Positions 3,830 to 28,700 of a stretch of DNA of 64,000 nt are shown piece by piece. The stretch's first letter is position 1, and each line of letters begins with the position of its first letter. The DNA is from Thermocrispum municipale DSM 44069. Its GTDB lineage: Bacteria > Actinomycetota > Actinomycetes > Mycobacteriales > Pseudonocardiaceae. Position numbers and translations under genes: made by a program. The stretch spans positions 636,157-700,156 of the forward strand of contig NZ_ATYT01000003.1 of NCBI RefSeq assembly GCF_000427825.1. Reading direction: 5' to 3'. Below the pieces are notes generated by a model. That model made no database searches. It had not been told where the DNA came from and saw nothing but the letters and a program-made list of their open reading frames with translations.

Positions 3830-4942
3830 TCACTGCCGGCTGGCTTCGGATTCGCGAACTTCCTGCAGGTACGCCGTGACGGCTTCGGCGGTCGCCGGCA
3901 CGTTGCGGTCGATCGAGCCTGCGACGCCTGCCTGCGCGCGGTCGACGTAGGGGCGCTGACGCTCCTCGTACTCGGTGAAAGCGGCCGCAAGGTCGTCCGG
4001 GTGCTTCTCCAGCGCCTCGGCGAGGAAGTAGCTGCCGCTGATGGCGAGCGATGTGCCACGCCCGGACAGTGGTGCGGCACAGTGCGCCGCGTCCCCGACC
4101 AGTACCACCCGGCCTTTGGACCACGTCGGCATCTTGGTCTGACCGCATTCGTCGAAGTACAGGCCGTCGCTTTCGCCCATCCGCGCGACGAGCTCCTGGA
4201 TCCGCCACACGTCGTCCTGGTAGACGCCGCGCAGGACCTCGTGGACGGCTGCCGGATCGCGATAGTTGATGTCGAGCTTCGGCGACCGGAAGTACCCGGC
4301 CACGATCTCCTCGTCCGGCGTCTGCAGCAGGCTGAGCATCCGGCCGGGCGCCAAGTGCATCTGCCCGGGCGTTCCGGCAGGTGCGGGCGGGCCGATCGGC
4401 GCGAGGACGACGTAGACGCCGAGGAAGTTGACGTAGTCCTCTTCCGGGCCGAACACGAGCGCGCGGGTCCGGGAGTGAATTCCGTCGGCACCCACCACCA
4501 GGTCGTAATCGTCCTCGGTGCCGTCACTCAGCACGACGTGTACCGAGTCGCCGTTGTCGGACAGCTCGGTGACCGTCGTGGAGAACCGCACATCGGTGTT
4601 CTCGTCGAGCGCGCCGGTGAGGATGGGCATCAGCTTCGGCCGCGGGATCTCGATGTCGTCCGGCCGGTCGTTGGCGTACCTGGTGGAGAAGCCCGCGACG
4701 CGCTTCCCGTCGTCGTCGACGTACTCCGTGCCGACGGTCATGCTGATCTCGGCGGCCCGCATCTCGTGGTAGATGCCCATCTCCCGGACCATGTCCAGGG
4801 CATCGCCCCGCACGTCGATCGGCGAGCCGGTCGTCCGGACGACGGGTGCCTGTTCGATCAGCGTGACTGTGTGGCCGCGGCGCTGCAGGGTGATGGTGGC
4901 GGCCAGGCCGGCCACACCGGCCCCGGTTACCAGAATTTTCAT
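3830..4942 (-). CDS. FAD-dependent monooxygenase (PHBH-type fold)
   Basis: A 370-residue flavoprotein hydroxylase. The N-terminal dinucleotide fold has VTGAGVAGLAATITL followed by a basic strand and VTLIEQ. A DDYDLVVGADG motif lies near the middle, and the FAD ribityl-binding GDAAH motif is VVLVGDAAHCAAPLSG at about residue 275-290. Such enzymes use NAD(P)H and O2 to hydroxylate aromatic or polyketide-like substrates. The neighbouring cupin-like and alpha/beta hydrolase genes fit a small oxidative degradation pathway, but the substrate cannot be read from the sequence. Confidence 0.9.
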   Translation of the reverse strand: MKILVTGAGVAGLAATITLQRRGHTVTLIEQAPVVRTTGSPIDVRGDALDMVREMGIYHEMRAAEISMTVGTEYVDDDGKRVAGFSTRYANDRPDDIEIPRPKLMPILTGALDENTDVRFSTTVTELSDNGDSVHVVLSDGTEDDYDLVVGADGIHSRTRALVFGPEEDYVNFLGVYVVLAPIGPPAPAGTPGQMHLAPGRMLSLLQTPDEEIVAGYFRSPKLDINYRDPAAVHEVLRGVYQDDVWRIQELVARMGESDGLYFDECGQTKMPTWSKGRVVLVGDAAHCAAPLSGRGTSLAISGSYFLAEALEKHPDDLAAAFTEYEERQRPYVDRAQAGVAGSIDRNVPATAEAVTAYLQEVRESEASRQ

Positions 4943-5896: not shown

Positions 5897-7708
5897 CTAC
5901 TGCTCGACGCGCGGGATCGAGGCGACTAGCCGCTTGGTGTAGTCGTGCGCAGGCCGGTCGAGGACGTCCGGTGTCTGGCCGGACTCCACCACCTTGCCGT
6001 GGTTGAGCACGTACACCCGGTCGGTGATCTGCCGGACGACGGCGAGGTCGTGGGTGATGAACACGTAGGTCAGCCCGAGGTCGGCCTGCAGTTCGCGGAG
6101 CAAGTTCAGGATGTGCGCCTGGACGGACACGTCGAGGGCGGAGACAACCTCGTCGCACACCACGATGCGCGGGTTACGGCTCAGCGCGCGAGCGATGGCC
6201 ACCCGCTGGCGCTCGCCGCCGGACAACTGGCCCGGCCAGCGGTGCGCGTATCCGGCAGGCAGCCCGACTCGTTCCAACAGCTCGGCGGTCGCCGCCTCGA
6301 GATCGTCCGCTCCGGACAGGCGCAGGCCCTCGCGAAGCGTGGAGCCGATCGTCCTGGTGGGGTTCAGCGTCGACATCGGGTCCTGGAACGCCATCTGGGC
6401 AAGCCCGCGCACCGTCGCCCATTGCTGTCTGGACACCCGTTTCGCGGCCAGCTCCACGCCGCCTACCCGCACACTTCCCGCGCTGGGCCGGGTCAGCCCG
6501 ACCATCATGCGAGCCAGCGTCGTCTTGCCCGAGCCGGACTCCCCTACCAAACCGACGCTTTCCCCGGCGTACACGTCCACGTCGACACCGTCGACAGCGA
6601 CTTTGTCCTGATAGTTCTTGCGGACCGCACGCATCTTCACGAGGAGATCGCCTGGCTGGACCGTCTCCGCACCGGCAGCGGGCCCGCCGGCCGCCTCGTC
6701 GGTGATCAGCGTGATCTCCTCGGCGCGATCGCACCGAACCCGATGTTCGCCGGACTCGTCAGTGATGCGTAGTGAGACCGGCGAATCGGTACAGGCGGCT
6801 ACGGCGTAGGAGCAGCGCGGGGCGAAGCGGCACCCGTCCGGCCTGCTACCGGGCGACGGGACCGAGCCGGGAATCGTCAGCAGACGCGGCACCCGATGAT
6901 CCAGCGGCGGTTCGGCGGCCAGCAACGCCGCCGTGTACGGATGTCGCGGCTGGGTGCGGATGGCGTCCGTCTCCCCCACTTCCACGATCTGGCCCGCATA
7001 CATCACGTAGACGCGGTCGCAGGTGGCGAACGCGACGCGGAGGTCGTGGGTGATCAGGATCAGGCCCAGCTCGTGGGTCTTGCGCAACCGGTCGAGCAGC
7101 TTCAGCACTTCCTGCTGCGTGGTGACATCCAAAGCGGTGGTGGGCTCGTCGGCGATCAGCACCCGCGGGTTCTCCGCGATCGCGGCCGCGATACCCACCC
7201 GCTGGCGCATCCCGCCGGAGAGCTGGAACGGGTACTTGCCCGCCACGGCCGGATCGGTGATGCCGACCTCGTTCAGCCTGGCCACGGCCTCGGCTCGCCG
7301 CTCCGCCTTGGACAGCTTGCGCCCGTCCTCGCCGCGCAGCGCCGCGGTGACCTGGTCGCCGACCTTCAGCACCGGGTTCAGCATGGTGAACGGGTCCTGC
7401 ATGATGAAGGCGATCTCGTTGCCGCGCAGCCTGCGCCGCGCCGCCTCGCTGAGCCGCAAGAACGACGTGCCCGCGACGCTGACGTCGCCTTCGCTGGTCA
7501 GCTCGGGCGGCAACAGGCCCAGAAGGGCGCGGGCGGTGACGGACTTGCCGCTACCGGACTCGCCGACGATCGCGATCGACTCCCCCGGCGCGACCCGCAG
7601 GCTGATCGACTCCGCGATCGGTCTGCGGGCGCGACCTTGTTCGAGCCAGACGCTGAGCGAGTCCGTGGCCAGACCGGTCTGCCGCCCGGTCGAGATGGTC
7701 GGGTTCAT
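5897..7708 (-). CDS. Fused double ABC ATPase of an oligopeptide/glutathione-type importer
   Basis: A 603-residue protein with two complete DppD/OppF-like ATPase modules. The first (about 10-270) has Walker A GESGSGKS, signature LSGGMRQRV and Walker B VLIADEPTTALD, followed by an oligopeptide-transporter C-terminal extension with cysteines (CRFAPRCSYA). The second (about 310-600) has Walker A GESGSGKTT, LSGGERQRV and VVCDEVVSALD. Peptide importers usually have two separate ATPase genes; the fused form is known in E. coli GsiA, the glutathione importer ATPase. The ATG at 7708 overlaps the stop of the upstream permease by 4 bp (ATGA), so the whole importer is one operon. Confidence 0.93.
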   Translation of the reverse strand: MNPTISTGRQTGLATDSLSVWLEQGRARRPIAESISLRVAPGESIAIVGESGSGKSVTARALLGLLPPELTSEGDVSVAGTSFLRLSEAARRRLRGNEIAFIMQDPFTMLNPVLKVGDQVTAALRGEDGRKLSKAERRAEAVARLNEVGITDPAVAGKYPFQLSGGMRQRVGIAAAIAENPRVLIADEPTTALDVTTQQEVLKLLDRLRKTHELGLILITHDLRVAFATCDRVYVMYAGQIVEVGETDAIRTQPRHPYTAALLAAEPPLDHRVPRLLTIPGSVPSPGSRPDGCRFAPRCSYAVAACTDSPVSLRITDESGEHRVRCDRAEEITLITDEAAGGPAAGAETVQPGDLLVKMRAVRKNYQDKVAVDGVDVDVYAGESVGLVGESGSGKTTLARMMVGLTRPSAGSVRVGGVELAAKRVSRQQWATVRGLAQMAFQDPMSTLNPTRTIGSTLREGLRLSGADDLEAATAELLERVGLPAGYAHRWPGQLSGGERQRVAIARALSRNPRIVVCDEVVSALDVSVQAHILNLLRELQADLGLTYVFITHDLAVVRQITDRVYVLNHGKVVESGQTPDVLDRPAHDYTKRLVASIPRVEQ

Positions 7709-22395: not shown

Positions 22396-23292
22396 CTATC
22401 CCTTCCGCGGGCCCCGGTAGTACTTGATCATGCTCGCGTAGCTCTCGCCGGCGAGGCCGTCGGCGATCGCTTGCCGGGTGAGCTCGGCAAGATGACGGGG
22501 TAGCGCCGCGTTCACCTCGTGGTCCTCGCTGGTGCGGGTCACGTGCTCCAGTGCCGTCAGATTCATTTCCGTGGTGTCGATCGTGCCCGCGAACTCGCCC
22601 GCATCGATCTTCGGCGCTTGGTCGTCGAGGATCGGCACGACCACCGAGTTGAGAAACCATCCCGTGGCCATCGACTCGAACTCCGTGGCGGAGACTCCGG
22701 CCGTCCCGACGAGTGCCGCTGCGTGGTAGAAGCCGTTGACCGTCGCGTACATGAAGCCCAGCAGTGCTGTGTTGTACAGCACCGCCAGCCCGGGGTCGGT
22801 CCCCACGTGCGACGACGCGCCGCCCAACACGTCCAGGGTCGATCTGTGCGTGTCGAACACGGCGCGATCGCCGCTGTAGAGAATCACGGCGTCCGGCTGC
22901 CCGACGGCGGGCACCGGCACCATGATCGCGCCGTCGAGGTAGTCGACGCCGTGTTCCTCGGCTCAGGCCGCGGCCTGACGGGCCTGTTCCGGAGTACCCG
23001 AGCTCAAGTTGACCAGCAGTCGCCCGCGGAGGGCGTCCACGCTCGAACCGAGAACGTCGTACATGGCGTCGTAGTCCGCGACGCAGGAGATGACGATCTT
23101 GCTGGCGGTCACGGCGTCATCGACTGTGTCGGCGCGAGACGCGCCTTCTGCGACGAGCGCGTCAGCCTTGGCGGCCGTGCGGTTCCACACCGTCGTGGCG
23201 TGGTCGTGCCGCAGGAACGCCCGAGCCAACGCCGAGCCCATCGGACCGAGCCCGAGGACCGTCACCGATAGTTGATCATCCATGTGCGCCAT
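22396..23292 (-). pseudogene. Imine-reductase-like NADPH dehydrogenase broken by one in-frame stop
   Basis: The two halves together give a normal-length (298-codon) protein of the 6-phosphogluconate-dehydrogenase-like/imine reductase group. The N-terminus has TVLGLGPMGSALARAFL and TVWNRTAAKA; the C-terminal half has GFMYATVNGFYHAAALVG and the late MIKYYRGP. Codon 110 is TGA (22963-22965), between QAAA and AEEHGVDYLDGAIM; relatives often have Trp there (TGG), so a single TGG to TGA change explains the break. No frame change is needed. Possible explanations are recent inactivation, a base-call error or readthrough. The start is taken at ATG 23292, just after the hydrolase gene. Confidence 0.82.
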
Positions 23293-23302
23293 TGTGGTGC
23301 CG

Positions 23303-24091
23303 TCACCGCGCGATCGCTTGTGCGATGTATTTCGCCAGGACTTCCGGTGCCTGAGCGTGCGCGAGGTGGCCCTGCCCCGGCATGCGAACCACGTCGGCTT
23401 GTGGCAGGGCATTCCGGATGACCTCGAACGCCGTGCCGTACGGCGGCGCGCCCTCGTTGAGTTCGCCCAGCAGGAGTGTGACCGGAACGTCGATCTCGGG
23501 GTACCGGTCCCACGCCGGAGTGTGTGCGTTCAGCGCGACCAGCTCGTCCGCAAGGGGGTGGGCGAGCGGACGTAGCACGGGCCAGACGGGGTTCGCGCGT
23601 AGCTCGGCGACGTACTCGGCGGAGAACCCCGACACGGTGCGGTTGACGATCTCGACGGCCCGGTCGAGATCCCCGTCGTGGTGCGCGTTCCGCAGGTCGT
23701 CGAGCGCCTCGATGCCGAACGGGCTCGACACCGGTTCGTAGGCGACGACCGAGCGCAATCTTTGACGGTCGACAGCGACCTCGAGGGCGATCAGGCCGCC
23801 GTAGCTCCAGCCGAACAAGTCGACCGGCTCGCCGATGACGTCCAGCACGTGGTTCAGGTCGTCGATCTCGGTACGCAGCGAGTAGTCCGGCCCGAGCGGC
23901 CCGCTGGGCACTCTCCCCCGCCGGTTGAGCACGATGACCGGATTGGGCACCGGCAGCGCATCGACGACCGGCCGCCAGCTGCAGGCGTCGGCCATGACGC
24001 CGGGTACGACGACCAGCGGTACGCCGTCACCGTCGCTGCGCTCGGCGAACAGCACGGTGCCGTCGCGGTCGAATCGCAGGGTTCGCATCAT
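23303..24091 (-). CDS. Alpha/beta hydrolase
   Basis: A 262-residue alpha/beta hydrolase with VVVPGVMAD near residue 30, nucleophile elbow FGWSYGG (Ser96), an acid near LLLGELNEG and the catalytic His in MPGQGHLAH. The ATG at 24091 (with a second ATG directly after) follows GAAAGGAAG. It lies 11 bp upstream of the broken imine-reductase-like gene and 8 bp from the end of the membrane protein gene, so it probably belongs to the amidase/nitrilase transcription unit. Confidence 0.88.
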   Translation of the reverse strand: MMRTLRFDRDGTVLFAERSDGDGVPLVVVPGVMADACSWRPVVDALPVPNPVIVLNRRGRVPSGPLGPDYSLRTEIDDLNHVLDVIGEPVDLFGWSYGGLIALEVAVDRQRLRSVVAYEPVSSPFGIEALDDLRNAHHDGDLDRAVEIVNRTVSGFSAEYVAELRANPVWPVLRPLAHPLADELVALNAHTPAWDRYPEIDVPVTLLLGELNEGAPPYGTAFEVIRNALPQADVVRMPGQGHLAHAQAPEVLAKYIAQAIAR

Positions 24092-24098
24092 CTTCCTT

Positions 24099-25295
24099 TC
24101 AGGAGGTGAAACCGGGCAGCAAGCCCAGCAGCGGGATGGTGATGGCGGTGCAGACCGTCATCGAGAACACGTTGCCGGCGAACGGGTGGACGCCCGCGGG
24201 CAGACGCCGGGTGGCGAACGCCGCCAGTGGTGGGCCGGTGAGGGCGCCCAGGACCGCGCCGGCAACGATCGCGGGGATCGTCGGGCCGAACGTGAGCACG
24301 GCCGCCGGGGCGACGGAGACGACCGGAACGAAGGTCGGGTACCAGCCGTGCTGGGCCCATTGACGGCGGTAGACCAGCACCCCGACCGTCGCGGTGAGTA
24401 CCTGTGCGGCGAGCAGCGCGGGCAGCAGTGTGCTGCCGTAGACCGGAACTTGCGGGTTCAGCACGTACGCCAGGACCGTCCCCACGATCAGCCCGAGCGA
24501 GGCGATTTCGTTGCCGTGGAACGGCGCCTCGGTGAAGTCGGCGAGTACGCGCCGGACCACCCATGCGGGTCCTTGACGCGGGGGTTCGACGGGCGCTTCG
24601 GGTGCGGGCAGGGGTTGCGGCATCCAGGGCAGCAACCGGCACAGCGGGAAGGCCAGGAGCGCTGATATCCACATCGCGGTGACGTTGCCGACGACGGCGG
24701 GGAGCTCGAGCGGCGCGCACACGTAGTTGACCAGTAGCAGGGCGATCGGAACCGTCAGGCCTGCACCGAGGATCGCGCCGGTGACGGCCACACCCCACCC
24801 GCGGCCGTAGGTCAGTACGACAGCGGGCGGGACGGACACGAACGCCACGAACGTCGGCTGCCACACGCCGGACGTCTCCAGCGTCCAACCCCACAGGAAG
24901 TGCGACACGACCACGGCGAGCAGGGCCGACGCGGTCACCCACGGCCACAGGCCGGTGCCGCCGCTGATGGCGAACCCGGCCCATCGGCGGCCGCGTTTCC
25001 ACGCCACGTGAGCGATCCACCCACCCGCGAGCATCCCGAGCCCGCCGAGCGCGGTCTTGTAGAACTGCGCCTCGGTCGTGTCGCCGAGGCACCAGCGGAA
25101 AAATTGCCAGACGTTGTCGTACGCCTGTGCCTGCCACTCCTCGTAACCGGGCAGGACGTGCGGCAGCGACGCGGCAGCCCGGGCAAGGACGAGAGCGAGG
25201 CCCGCGGTGGCGGCGACCAGAGCGCCGCCGGCGAGCCAGCGCCCGAGCGAGCCCGCACTGCGCGTGTCGGTCGATTCGGCGAGTTCGGTGGCCAT
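24099..25295 (-). CDS. Polytopic membrane protein with an internal duplication, putative transporter
   Basis: A 398-residue protein with about nine or ten hydrophobic segments and no family I can name. Residues 147-224 and 320-394 are clearly related: both contain PTFVxxVSVxPAxVLTxG, a glycine-rich helix, then GNVxxM and a closing PLxxLLP. A proline-rich loop (about 226-243) links the halves. Internal repeats of this kind are usual in transporters and channels. It lies between a nitrilase-family gene (12 bp upstream) and an alpha/beta hydrolase, in a unit headed by an amidase and facing a LacI regulator, so uptake of an amide or nitrile substrate is a reasonable guess. Confidence 0.6.
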   Translation of the reverse strand: MATELAESTDTRSAGSLGRWLAGGALVAATAGLALVLARAAASLPHVLPGYEEWQAQAYDNVWQFFRWCLGDTTEAQFYKTALGGLGMLAGGWIAHVAWKRGRRWAGFAISGGTGLWPWVTASALLAVVVSHFLWGWTLETSGVWQPTFVAFVSVPPAVVLTYGRGWGVAVTGAILGAGLTVPIALLLVNYVCAPLELPAVVGNVTAMWISALLAFPLCRLLPWMPQPLPAPEAPVEPPRQGPAWVVRRVLADFTEAPFHGNEIASLGLIVGTVLAYVLNPQVPVYGSTLLPALLAAQVLTATVGVLVYRRQWAQHGWYPTFVPVVSVAPAAVLTFGPTIPAIVAGAVLGALTGPPLAAFATRRLPAGVHPFAGNVFSMTVCTAITIPLLGLLPGFTS

Positions 25296-25307: not shown

Positions 25308-26186
25308 TCAGCGCGGGTAGACCTGACCGCCGCGGTAACCGAGCAGCGGATCGTAGAGATCGGTGCGGCGGTCACGGGGCAGGTCGTTGAGCTCGTTCCA
25401 GATCGCGGCCGAGCGGGTCGCCATCAGGTCCAGCTCGGCGAACACCGTGGTCTCCCCCTCAGCCGGAGCCACCTCGCCGACCGGCCAGCCGTTCGTCCCG
25501 GTGATCAACGAGCAGCCGAGGAACTTCGCGCCGCGCTCCTCCCCGACGCGGTCGGCTGCCACGATCGGCACGTTGTTGACGTGCGAGGCGGTCATCGTCA
25601 GGTACGAGGCCATGCACTTGCCCGCGTCGTCGAACAGCGGCGGCGGCGTCCAGACCCAGTTGTTCACGCTGCAGATGACATCGGCACCTTGCACCGAGAG
25701 CAGCCGGGCGACCTCCGGGAACCAGATGTCCCAGCAGACCAGCAAGCCGATACGGCCGATGCGGGTGTCGAACACCGGGAAGCCGAGGTCGCCGGGCGTG
25801 AACACCAGCTTCTCGCGGTTCCACAGGTGCGTCTTGCGGTAGTGCCCGATGAGCCCGTCCGGCCCGATCAGCACGGCGGTGTCGTACAACCGCACACCGT
25901 CCGCCTCGGCCATGCCACCGACCAAGTGAATGCCACGGTCACGGGCGAGTTCGCACCACGCGTGCACCGTCGGCCCGGTCAGCGGCTCGGCGTGCGCGTA
26001 GGCCTCCTCGCGGGTTTCGAACGAGTAGCCGGTGTTGACCAGCTCGGGCAGCACCACGAGGTTCGCGCCCTCGTCGGCGGCCGCGTTCGCCAGCTCGAGG
26101 GTGCGGGCGAGGTTCTTGTCCTTGTTCTCCATGCCGACCTGGGGGTCGCACTGGACCGCTGCGGCGACGATGACGCTGGTGGACAT
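25308..26186 (-). CDS. Nitrilase superfamily amidohydrolase
   Basis: A 292-residue carbon-nitrogen hydrolase with the full Glu-Lys-Cys triad: Glu48 in VVLPELVNTGY, Lys118 in HYRKTHLW, Cys151 in GLLVCWDIWFPE. It resembles N-carbamoyl-D-amino acid or aliphatic amidase members more than true nitrilases, but the substrate is not clear. The ATG at 26184-26186 follows AAAGGAAA. It is 11 bp downstream of the amidase gene. Confidence 0.9.
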   Translation of the reverse strand: MSTSVIVAAAVQCDPQVGMENKDKNLARTLELANAAADEGANLVVLPELVNTGYSFETREEAYAHAEPLTGPTVHAWCELARDRGIHLVGGMAEADGVRLYDTAVLIGPDGLIGHYRKTHLWNREKLVFTPGDLGFPVFDTRIGRIGLLVCWDIWFPEVARLLSVQGADVICSVNNWVWTPPPLFDDAGKCMASYLTMTASHVNNVPIVAADRVGEERGAKFLGCSLITGTNGWPVGEVAPAEGETTVFAELDLMATRSAAIWNELNDLPRDRRTDLYDPLLGYRGGQVYPR

Positions 26187-26197
26187 GCGGTTTCCTT

Positions 26198-27550
26198 TCA
26201 GTGGGTGATGCCTGACAGGGCTTCGGTGGCGGACAACAAGCGGTACTCGGAGCCGGGTGGGCCGACCAGCTGAACGCCGATCGGCAGGCCGTCGACGCGG
26301 CCTGCGGGGACCGAGACCGCGGGCAGGCCCAGCACGCTCCAGGGGCTGGTCAGCGACAACAGGGCCGTGCGAATGTCGACCGGCTCACCTGCGACGCGCC
26401 ACTCGCGGCTGCCGAGCGGTGGGGCCGTCAGCGGGATCGTCGGCAGGGCGAGGAAGTCGACCCGGCGGAAGACCTCCATCACGGATTCGCGGACGCGGTC
26501 GCGACGTTCGAGTGCGCGGACGTACTCCCAGTCGTGGACGTCGCCACCGGCGAAGAGCCGATCGCGTACTTCATCGCTGTACAGCTCGGCTTCGGTGGCG
26601 AGCCGGTCGACGTGCACCGCGTAGGACTCCCTGCCCTGGATGACGCGGTACGCCTCGCGCAGGTCGCGGATCTGTGGGAGCGAGACCGTGCTGGGTTCGC
26701 CGACGGCGAGGCGCGCTGCGCGCGCGATGCGGGGCTCGACGGGATGGACTGTGCTGGGCTCGAGCCAGCCGATGCTTGGCAAGCCGTCCTGACCATGCGC
26801 GGTCTCGCCGGTGGTCAGAGCTGTCCACGCCAGGCGGCATTCCGCACTGCTGCGGGCCAGCACGCCGACGGTGTCGAGCGATGGGGCGAGCGGAAAGACG
26901 CCGCTGGTCGGGACCGCTCCGTAGGTCGGTTTGAGACCGACGACCCCACAACAGGCCGCGGGAACCCGCACCGAGCCACCGGTGTCGGTGCCGAGCGCGA
27001 GCGGGACGATGCCCGCGGCGACCGCGGCGGCCGAGCCGCTGCTCGAGCCACCCGCCATGCGGTCGACGGCGTGGGGGTTGTGGGTGGGGCCGTTCGCGGA
27101 CAAGTCGCCGGTCGGGCCGTTGGCGAACTCGTGGGTGGTCGTCTTGCCGATGATGATCGCGCCGGCCTCCCGCAGCCGCGCCACACACGCGGCGTCCTGC
27201 TCGGCGACATGGCCGGTGAAGTGTCTGGCGCCTGCCGTGGTGGGCAACCCGCGGACGTCGATCATGTCCTTGACCGCGACCGGAAGACCGTGCAGCGGGC
27301 CGCGGTCGGTGCCTGCGGCCAGTTCTTCGGTCGCTTGCTCCGCTGCCCTGCGTGCTCCGGACTCGTCGAGCGTGACGAAGGCGTTGATCCTCGGCTGCCA
27401 GCGGGCGGCTTCGGCCAGTGCGATCTCCACCAGGTCGCGCGGTGACGGCCCGTCCGCGCGCAGCTTCGCCGCCAGCTCGGCGACACCGACCCCGGCGAAG
27501 AGGCCGGCACCAGGCGGCGCGACGAGCCCGGCCTTCAGGGATGACGACAC
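26198..27550 (-). CDS. Amidase signature family enzyme
   Basis: A 450-residue amidase with the Ser-cisSer-Lys triad: Lys94 in LPVAVKDMIDV, the cis-Ser near 170 in GGSSSGSAAAV, and the nucleophile Ser193 in GTDTGGSVRVPA. The family hydrolyses amides, including GatA-like and indoleacetamide-type substrates; the absence of gatB/gatC neighbours argues against tRNA amidation. The start is GTG 27550 after GAGAGGAA. The promoter region carries CAAACGTTTG at 27571-27580, so it should be under the divergent LacI protein. Confidence 0.92.
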   Translation of the reverse strand: MSSSLKAGLVAPPGAGLFAGVGVAELAAKLRADGPSPRDLVEIALAEAARWQPRINAFVTLDESGARRAAEQATEELAAGTDRGPLHGLPVAVKDMIDVRGLPTTAGARHFTGHVAEQDAACVARLREAGAIIIGKTTTHEFANGPTGDLSANGPTHNPHAVDRMAGGSSSGSAAAVAAGIVPLALGTDTGGSVRVPAACCGVVGLKPTYGAVPTSGVFPLAPSLDTVGVLARSSAECRLAWTALTTGETAHGQDGLPSIGWLEPSTVHPVEPRIARAARLAVGEPSTVSLPQIRDLREAYRVIQGRESYAVHVDRLATEAELYSDEVRDRLFAGGDVHDWEYVRALERRDRVRESVMEVFRRVDFLALPTIPLTAPPLGSREWRVAGEPVDIRTALLSLTSPWSVLGLPAVSVPAGRVDGLPIGVQLVGPPGSEYRLLSATEALSGITH

Positions 27551-27570
27551 ACCGGTTCCTCTCTCGGACG

Positions 27571-27627
27571 CAAACGTTTGGGTTTCGTGTCGCGACGCTA
27601 CCCAAACGTTTGGGGCAATCGTTTGGG
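27571..27627. promoter_or_regulatory. LacI-type operators between the amidase operon and the LacI gene
   Basis: Two perfect CAAACGTTTG palindromes lie at 27571-27580 and 27603-27612 (the second inside CCCAAACGTTTGGGG), and a diverged copy CAATCGTTTG at 27616-27625. The first two are 32 bp apart, three helical turns, so dimers would sit on the same face. The central CG and flanking AAA/TTT fit LacI-family sites. Their location between divergent genes suggests control of both. Confidence 0.8.
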
Positions 27628-27686: not shown

Positions 27687-28700
27687 GTGAAGCGTCAGGG
27701 CGGAAAGAAGCCCGCCACGCTGCGGATGGTCGCCGAGTCCGCCGGGGTGGACGTCTCGACTGTGTCGAGGGTGCTCAACGGGCCGCCCGACGAGGTCTCA
27801 CGCGCGGCGTCCCGGGAGACGGTCAAGGCGATCCGGGAGTGGGCGGCACGGCTGGACTACCGGCCGAACCCGCACGCGAAGAGCCTGCGGACCGCGCGGA
27901 GCAACCTCATCGGCGTGCTGGTCCCCCGATTGTCGGACGTCGTGTTGGCGACGATCTACGAAGGGATCGAGGATGCGGCCGCGCGCCACGGGTTGGCCAC
28001 CTTCGTGATGAACAGCCACGACCGGCCCGAGAAGCAACGGGCGAGGACCGATCTGGCCCTGTCCCGGCGGGTGGACGGGCTCGTGCTGGGAGACGCCCAC
28101 AGCGATGCGCAGCTCGTCGACGAGATCGCCGCGCGCAATGTTCCGTTCGTCCTGGTCAGCAGGCACGCAGGCGACCACCCGTCGGTCACCTGCGACGACT
28201 ACCTGGGCGGCAAGCTCGTGGCGGAACACTTCCTCGAGCTCGGTCATGAGCAGGTCGGCGTGATCGCGGGCGAACCGTTCGCCAGCACCGGGATCGATCG
28301 CACCGCGGGATTCGTCGACCGCTACCGGGAGGCGGGTATCGACGTCCCGGTCGTGCACTCGGCGTTCGACACCGCCGGTGGGCACCGGGCGGCCGAAAAG
28401 CTGCTGCAGCAGGGTGCTCGGCCGACCGCGATGTTCGCGGTGAACGACTTCGCGGCCATCGGCGCCATGGGCGCGGTCCGTGACGCCGGCTTGCGGCCTG
28501 GCGAGGACGTGGCCGTGGCCGGCTTCAACGACATCCCGCTCGCGGCCGAACTGCCGCTGCCGTTGACCAGCGTGCGCTCACCCATGCACGAGATGGGCAA
28601 GCGCGCGCTGGAAGTGCTTGTCGCGATCCTCGGTGGCCAGGAGCCACGATCCGAACGCCTCGCACCGAAGCTGGTCGTGCGAGCCTCCACCCGTCCCTGA
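27687..28700 (+). CDS. LacI family transcriptional regulator
   Basis: A 337-residue regulator. Residues 9-60 form the LacI HTH and hinge (TLRMVAESAGVDVSTVSRVLNG, then ARLDYRPNPHAKSLRTARSNLIGVLVP), followed by a periplasmic-binding-protein-like sensor domain with DGLVLGDAHSD, HFLELGHEQVGVIAG and VAVAGFNDIPLAAELPLPLTSV. The start is GTG 27687 after GGGAGGGG. It likely represses the divergent amidase-nitrilase-membrane protein-hydrolase unit through the CAAACGTTTG sites. The effector cannot be predicted. Confidence 0.93.
   Translation: MKRQGGKKPATLRMVAESAGVDVSTVSRVLNGPPDEVSRAASRETVKAIREWAARLDYRPNPHAKSLRTARSNLIGVLVPRLSDVVLATIYEGIEDAAARHGLATFVMNSHDRPEKQRARTDLALSRRVDGLVLGDAHSDAQLVDEIAARNVPFVLVSRHAGDHPSVTCDDYLGGKLVAEHFLELGHEQVGVIAGEPFASTGIDRTAGFVDRYREAGIDVPVVHSAFDTAGGHRAAEKLLQQGARPTAMFAVNDFAAIGAMGAVRDAGLRPGEDVAVAGFNDIPLAAELPLPLTSVRSPMHEMGKRALEVLVAILGGQEPRSERLAPKLVVRASTRP

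Follow-up and report, generated by a model that had tools for sequence, protein, structure and literature searches.

In the window analysed here, a stretch of 64,000 nucleotides, an ORF at 24099..25295 on the minus strand (ATG start, 398 amino acids) encodes a membrane protein composed of two halves, with a predicted urea transporter (UT) fold. Judging from the structural model and from the enzymes encoded beside it, the protein is probably a UT-fold channel from a separate, unnamed family, which would admit small amides or urea for the co-encoded enzymes. We also lean, on balance, towards a more specific assignment as a general primary-amide channel: a second branch of the UT fold with a remodelled filter, which travels with the amide-forming or amide-cleaving enzyme of its host and would play a role similar to that of AmiS/UreI. 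The remodelled filter would then carry acidic residues at both ends and an aliphatic centre replacing the threonine pair of the UTs.

The protein had been described in a preliminary description of this DNA as having two homologous halves, and both the halves and the coordinates of the gene, which had come without a strand, proved to be correct. Residues ~60–230 and ~240–398 are homologous to each other: for the window protein alone, the Smith-Waterman comparison of half 1 (60–230) with half 2 (240–398) gave a score of 166, while 1000 shuffles of this comparison gave a mean of 40, a standard deviation of 7.6, and a maximum of 82. A profile-profile comparison of the halves, based on a 32-sequence alignment, yielded a probability of 99.7 and an E-value of 2.4e-25 over 147 columns with 33% identity. 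The repeat itself had been placed at residues 147–224 and 320–394; the repetition is real, but its extent was too narrow, since almost the whole of each half is duplicated. The opening motif is also repeated (RWxxGDxxExxF and RRVLADFxExxF), and each half starts with D-x-x-E-x-x-F and closes with GNV-x-x-M. A search of the window protein against Pfam and NCBIfam profiles returned zero families at E ≤ 1, so that no assignment to a non-transport family emerged, and searches of PDB sequences with the protein and with a profile of its homologues gave nothing useful. All five annotated plasmid homologues are named hypothetical protein, and literature searches covering titles and abstract openings found no description of the family among the records listed.

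The gene belongs to a tight operon on the minus strand. It is preceded by genes for an amidase-signature amidase (26198..27550; PF01425, with VKD and GGSSSGS motifs), whose closest solved chains are 2dc0 (probable amidase) and 6c62 (biuret hydrolase), and for a carbon-nitrogen (CN) hydrolase of the nitrilase superfamily (25308..26186; PF00795). The closest solved chain to the latter is 3ivz (nitrilase/β-ureidopropionase), and the protein contains Glu48, Lys118, and Cys151, which we take to be its catalytic residues. The last gene of the operon encodes an α/β-fold hydrolase (23303..24091; PF12697); such a gene lies near the channel gene in only 9 of 118 related loci and is an optional, accessory member of the operon. 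The gaps between these four genes are 11, 12, and 7 bases, from the amidase onwards, and a LacI-family regulator (27687..28700, plus strand; PF00356 and PF13377) is encoded divergently; the make-up of the operon is as the preliminary description had it. Just downstream of the operon, at 22396–23292 on the minus strand, is an NADPH-dependent reductive-aminase-like gene with a PF21761 C-terminal domain; its reading frame is broken by an in-frame stop at about 22963–22965, which looks like the mark of a pseudogene or an error in the sequence.

The 136 bases separating the LacI gene from the amidase gene contain two candidate LacI-type operators, a perfect 14-bp palindrome, CCCAAACGTTTGGG (27601..27614), and a second near-palindrome, ACGCAAACGTTTGGGT (27568..27583). 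The segment 27568–27628 can be described as two LacI-type operator copies around AAACGTTT, with a possible third, degenerate copy. A LacI gene was identified in 21 relatives, and 11 of these have the core CAAACGTTTG upstream of it. The exact 14-mer occurs twice in Acinetobacter populi (L042) and is also present in several actinobacterial relatives. Among the 21, L004 has a one-base variant of the core, the LacI gene of L010, which follows the channel gene at a distance of ~3.5 kb, looks unrelated, and most of the other relatives lacking the core have a LacI protein only ~50% identical to that of the window.

In order to examine the gene company of the family, we collected 77 genome contig loci, 37 match regions, 5 annotated plasmid regions, and 4 further distant regions. 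One locus with no ORF found for the gene (L074) and four duplicates (L167, L168, L180, and L196, identical to L002, L004, L067, and L003, respectively) were dropped before counting, and a weak partial match (L242, E 1.1e-4) and an unannotated plasmid match (H1) were kept outside the counts. The enzymes tested were amidase, CN-hydrolase, asparaginase, Trp-2-monooxygenase-like protein, arginase-family protein, and urease alpha. At least one of these amide/urea enzymes was encoded within 2.5 kb of the channel gene in 107 of the 118 distinct related loci; as the reference proteins came partly from the same loci, this and the following counts describe a pattern that was found and then counted. In the far flanks used as a control (3.5–6.3 kb), an enzyme was present in 3 of 63 loci; close to the channel gene, the count for these 63 loci was 53. 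An enzyme match was located at 300 bp or less in 98 of the 118 loci, and at least one was on the same strand in 96. CN-hydrolase was the most frequent partner (91 of 118), followed by asparaginase (63), monooxygenase-like protein (53), amidase (30), arginase-family protein (2), and urease (1). The locus set is dominated by Pseudomonas; at the level of 70% identity clusters, which comprise 107 loci and leave 11 outside the cluster set, 26 of 28 clusters agree. The strong co-occurrence with amide enzymes, together with the predicted fold, supports the earlier proposal of a duplicated transport protein that would be coupled to amide hydrolases.

The partner enzymes differ between lineages. One Pseudomonas set consists of genes for a Trp-2-monooxygenase-like flavoenzyme, a CN-hydrolase, the channel, and an asparaginase (e.g. 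positions 4813–10124 of L006), and 45 of the 71 Pseudomonas-group loci, counted with the four duplicates still included, have all four inside 2.5 kb. The flavoenzyme is closest to Trp 2-monooxygenase 4iv9 (E 1e-29), an enzyme class whose product is a primary amide. It is presumably a monooxygenase, and its product might be an amide that could serve the CN-hydrolase and the asparaginase as substrate. In a distant genome of the host's phylum (L165), the channel gene is directly upstream of ureA-ureB-ureC and of a UreE-like gene scoring below the curated cut-off. In another genome (G743), both channel copies adjoin an MFS gene and an arginase-family gene, the latter identified by scanning in one locus (L176) and carried to the other (L178) by similarity. 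All five annotated plasmid homologues adjoin an amidase or nitrilase-family gene. On the plasmids of Rhodococcus qingshengii CS98 and Prescottella equi WH99, the amidase and channel genes are a few kb from an AmiS/UreI gene and its own amidase gene; these paired amidase/channel sets span positions 4255–11554 of L228 and 4243–11544 of L229. The settings in L165, in G743, and on these two plasmids point in particular to urea and amides.

None of the tested enzymes was found within 2.5 kb in the five loci of one subfamily, f27 (L166 and L238–L241), nor in L059, L065, L170, L173, L175, and L177. For L059, enzymes are encoded about 3.5–6.5 kb away, and for L170 an arginase-family gene is ~6 kb away. 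In 4 of the 5 f27 loci, the channel gene and a gene of one conserved family lie side by side in divergent orientation; the L166 member of this neighbour family is an Amidohydro_3 protein. The f27 subfamily is distant (28% identity for the L166 channel).

The channel family is present in Actinomycetota, Pseudomonas, Acinetobacter, and Phyllobacterium. Counting the host, it is carried by 28 of 390 genomes (8 of 46 genera) in the host's family and by 6 of 396 genomes across the phylum; the one other genome of the host genus among those listed is without the gene. The Acinetobacter cassette contains the same four parts as the window, with LacI, CN-hydrolase, channel, and amidase 50%, 65%, 43%, and 39% identical, respectively, to those of the window, and with the same palindrome, which suggests that the cassette may move between phyla. 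Several genomes have more than one copy of the channel gene: channel matches number three in G718 and two each in G743, G674, and G567; L058 contains two copies ~5 kb apart (303–1502 and 6382–7659), and partial second copies are found at the locus edge in L018 (17–448) and L024 (65–445). Given these multiple copies, paralogues may serve different substrates.

The AlphaFold (AF2) model of the window protein has a pLDDT of 85 and a pTM of 0.86. Its best VIA match was human UT-A3 (Z 24.5, rmsd 3.4, 304 residues), and 16 UT entries scored Z 23.2–24.5 over 288–313 residues. In Foldseek, ranks 1–10 were all UTs, with a best E-value of 4.6e-4 and a probability of 1.00. A second model, that of the Acinetobacter homologue L042 (41% identical to the window protein), matched 15 UT entries in VIA at Z 22.9–24.2, the highest value again being for UT-A3, and the next fold scored 13.1; in Foldseek its top match was a UT (E 8.5e-3), the only UT among the best 50 listed. 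The alignments behind the two models overlap for the most part, so that the models are not independent. No match was found in a viral structure library. The window model also has a predicted N-terminal helix (residues 16–41), which lies outside most of the UT-aligned ranges. We conclude that the protein has the predicted fold of the UT/SLC14 family (PF03253, TC 1.A.28; e.g. dvUT, 3k3f, and UT-B, 4ezc), common to both over ~300 residues. The preliminary description had called the protein a carrier; with a channel-type fold predicted, this term is probably wrong.

The next fold after the UTs in the VIA comparison of the window model was that of Amt/Rh proteins (Z 13.9). The main alternative to an amide or urea channel is an ammonia or water pore, similar to Amt/Rh or to a UT leaking NH3, that vents the ammonia released by the amidases instead of taking up amide. 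Most partner enzymes of the channel gene release ammonia, as this alternative would have it, and human UT-B is reported to transport ammonia (PMC12171576). Nevertheless, the resemblance to Amt/Rh is distant, ~10 Z units below the UT fold; there is no ammonium transporter among the 10 Pfam families matched at E ≤ 1 by 32 family members; and the members adjacent to urease and arginase-family genes fit urea at least as well. We consider such a pore unlikely.

The UT assignment rests on predicted structure; the kinship of the family with UTs at the sequence or profile level is not significant. None of the 32 members matched PF03253 at E ≤ 1, and profile-profile comparisons of whole proteins, halves, and pooled half-units with 27 canonical UTs gave non-significant probabilities of 0.2–8.6% (P 0.004–0.23). 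These scores are no better than those obtained with ThrE (3.6–10.4%, P 0.003–0.012). The Pfam family ThrE (PF06738) is, moreover, the most frequent match of the family (11 of 32 members, best E 7.4e-4), so we considered that the protein might be related to ThrE and work as a secondary active carrier or as an exporter, perhaps of the carboxylate product. We inspected the match ranges for 10 members, 5 of which matched, and compared profiles with 18 ThrE proteins. The matched profile segment was identical in the five detailed matches. However, these five covered ~70 residues at 11.2–17.0 bits, below the cut-off of 26.3, the profile probabilities were low, and structure prediction gave a UT fold. 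ThrE did not match the window protein itself in Pfam at E ≤ 1, and no ThrE chain was among the structure matches listed for its model. Given so short and weak a match, we set kinship with ThrE aside, with the proviso that UT is no better by sequence alone, and we regard a carrier of this kind as quite improbable.

In order to compare the filter residues with those of UTs, we counted residues in 109 proteins, namely the window protein and the long enough matches in L002–L078 and L162–L198 after removal of duplicates; this set leaves out the plasmid members and L238–L241. According to PMC4357013, the So residues of dvUT are Glu187, Val188, Phe190, and Leu293, the Sm residues are Leu84, Thr130, Leu247, and Thr294, and the Si residues are Phe80 and Leu129, with Gln67 and Val68 contributing to Si in UT-A2. 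Glu75 of the window protein is kept in 108 of the 109 homologues (one gap) and Glu256 also in 108 (one Gln), Phe78 is found in 104 and Phe259 in 107, and Pro199 and Thr321 are invariant (109 of 109). In all 27 canonical UTs, the first of the two acidic sites is Gln and the second is Gln or Glu, and the filter-end Phe is variable (4 of 27 and 7 of 27). Both families consist of two homologous halves, and an acidic residue or Gln at the opening of each half may be a further likeness. Three structure alignments, starting at residues 61/10 (3me1_A) and 60/52 (8xd7_A) for the window model and 57/8 (3me1_B) for the L042 model, would, if ungapped, place Glu75 (Glu73 in L042) on Gln24 of dvUT or Gln67 of UT-A2, two residues that we assume to be counterparts; the remaining UT alignments start elsewhere and give other offsets for the Glu75 register.

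The centre of the filter would also differ. In UTs, each half carries the signature L(P/S)xxTxPF, which contains the Sm threonine, and both Sm sites are Thr or Ser in all 27 canonical UTs. The window family has LPxVxGNV and xHxxIGNV-type sequences in these places, and the residues in the motif register are mostly Ile or Val, otherwise Leu, Ala, or Phe, with Thr in 2 of the 109 homologues at position 202 and in none at position 373. As the register of the Sm sites is based on the motif only, and the C-terminal ends of the structure alignments (398 with 316 or 360) would give an offset ~3 residues different if ungapped, the site is provisional. Since mostly aliphatic residues would replace the Sm threonines, the filter chemistry would differ from that of UTs, and together with the lack of a profile match this points to a UT-fold sibling family rather than a member of PF03253. 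A non-transport role, in which the protein anchors the amide enzymes to the membrane or acts as a sensor for them, would fit the usual position of its gene near enzymes, but is very improbable: a channel fold is predicted, acidic and aromatic residues are kept almost without exception, and the secondary structure of the model shows no apparent separate soluble domain.

For the UT-fold channel that we favour, we infer the conduction, cargo, direction, residue roles, and regulation as follows. As in UTs, a single pore would lie between the two halves, and Glu75 and Glu256 would stand where the UT filter has its Gln/Glu pair, one at each end. Small, uncharged carboxamides or molecules resembling urea would move through it passively, down their gradient; the amidase and the CN-hydrolase would split the amide inside the cell into acid and ammonia, such that the gradient stays inward. 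The LacI regulator would switch the operon on by de-repression when the substrate or product is present.

With regard to the cargo, an amide or a nitrile had been proposed. The CN-hydrolase matches amide/carbamoyl hydrolases as well as nitrilases; an amide is therefore a safer guess than a nitrile. No canonical UT, AmiS/UreI, or urease alpha was found in the host genome (98.66% complete), which makes an amide the likelier cargo in the host, with urea unlikely as a nutrient. The operon encodes two different amide hydrolases, and in L188 and L227 an asparaginase takes the place of the amidase next to a related CN-hydrolase. This hints that the substrate may bear two carboxamide groups, as malonamide or succinamide do, although this is speculation.

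The family can be compared with two established types of channel. It resembles UT/SLC14 in the genomic link of some members to urea chemistry, but differs in its partners, which are mostly CN-hydrolases, asparaginases, and amidases, and in its extra N-terminal helix. The likeness to AmiS/UreI (PF02293) lies in the genomic place, a channel gene adjoining an amidase gene; AmiS/UreI channel genes also adjoin urease. The proteins nevertheless belong to different families: UreI is a small six-helix protein, and none of the 32 members matched PF02293 at E ≤ 1.

In summary, if our assignment is correct, the urea-channel fold would not be limited to SLC14/PF03253 but would include a family now annotated as hypothetical, whose naturally altered UT filter could be used to test how such channels discriminate between urea and larger amides. 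Uptake can be rate-limiting in bioconversion, for which actinobacteria and pseudomonads that degrade amides are used, and the channel would supply the uptake step for many amide-degradation operons.
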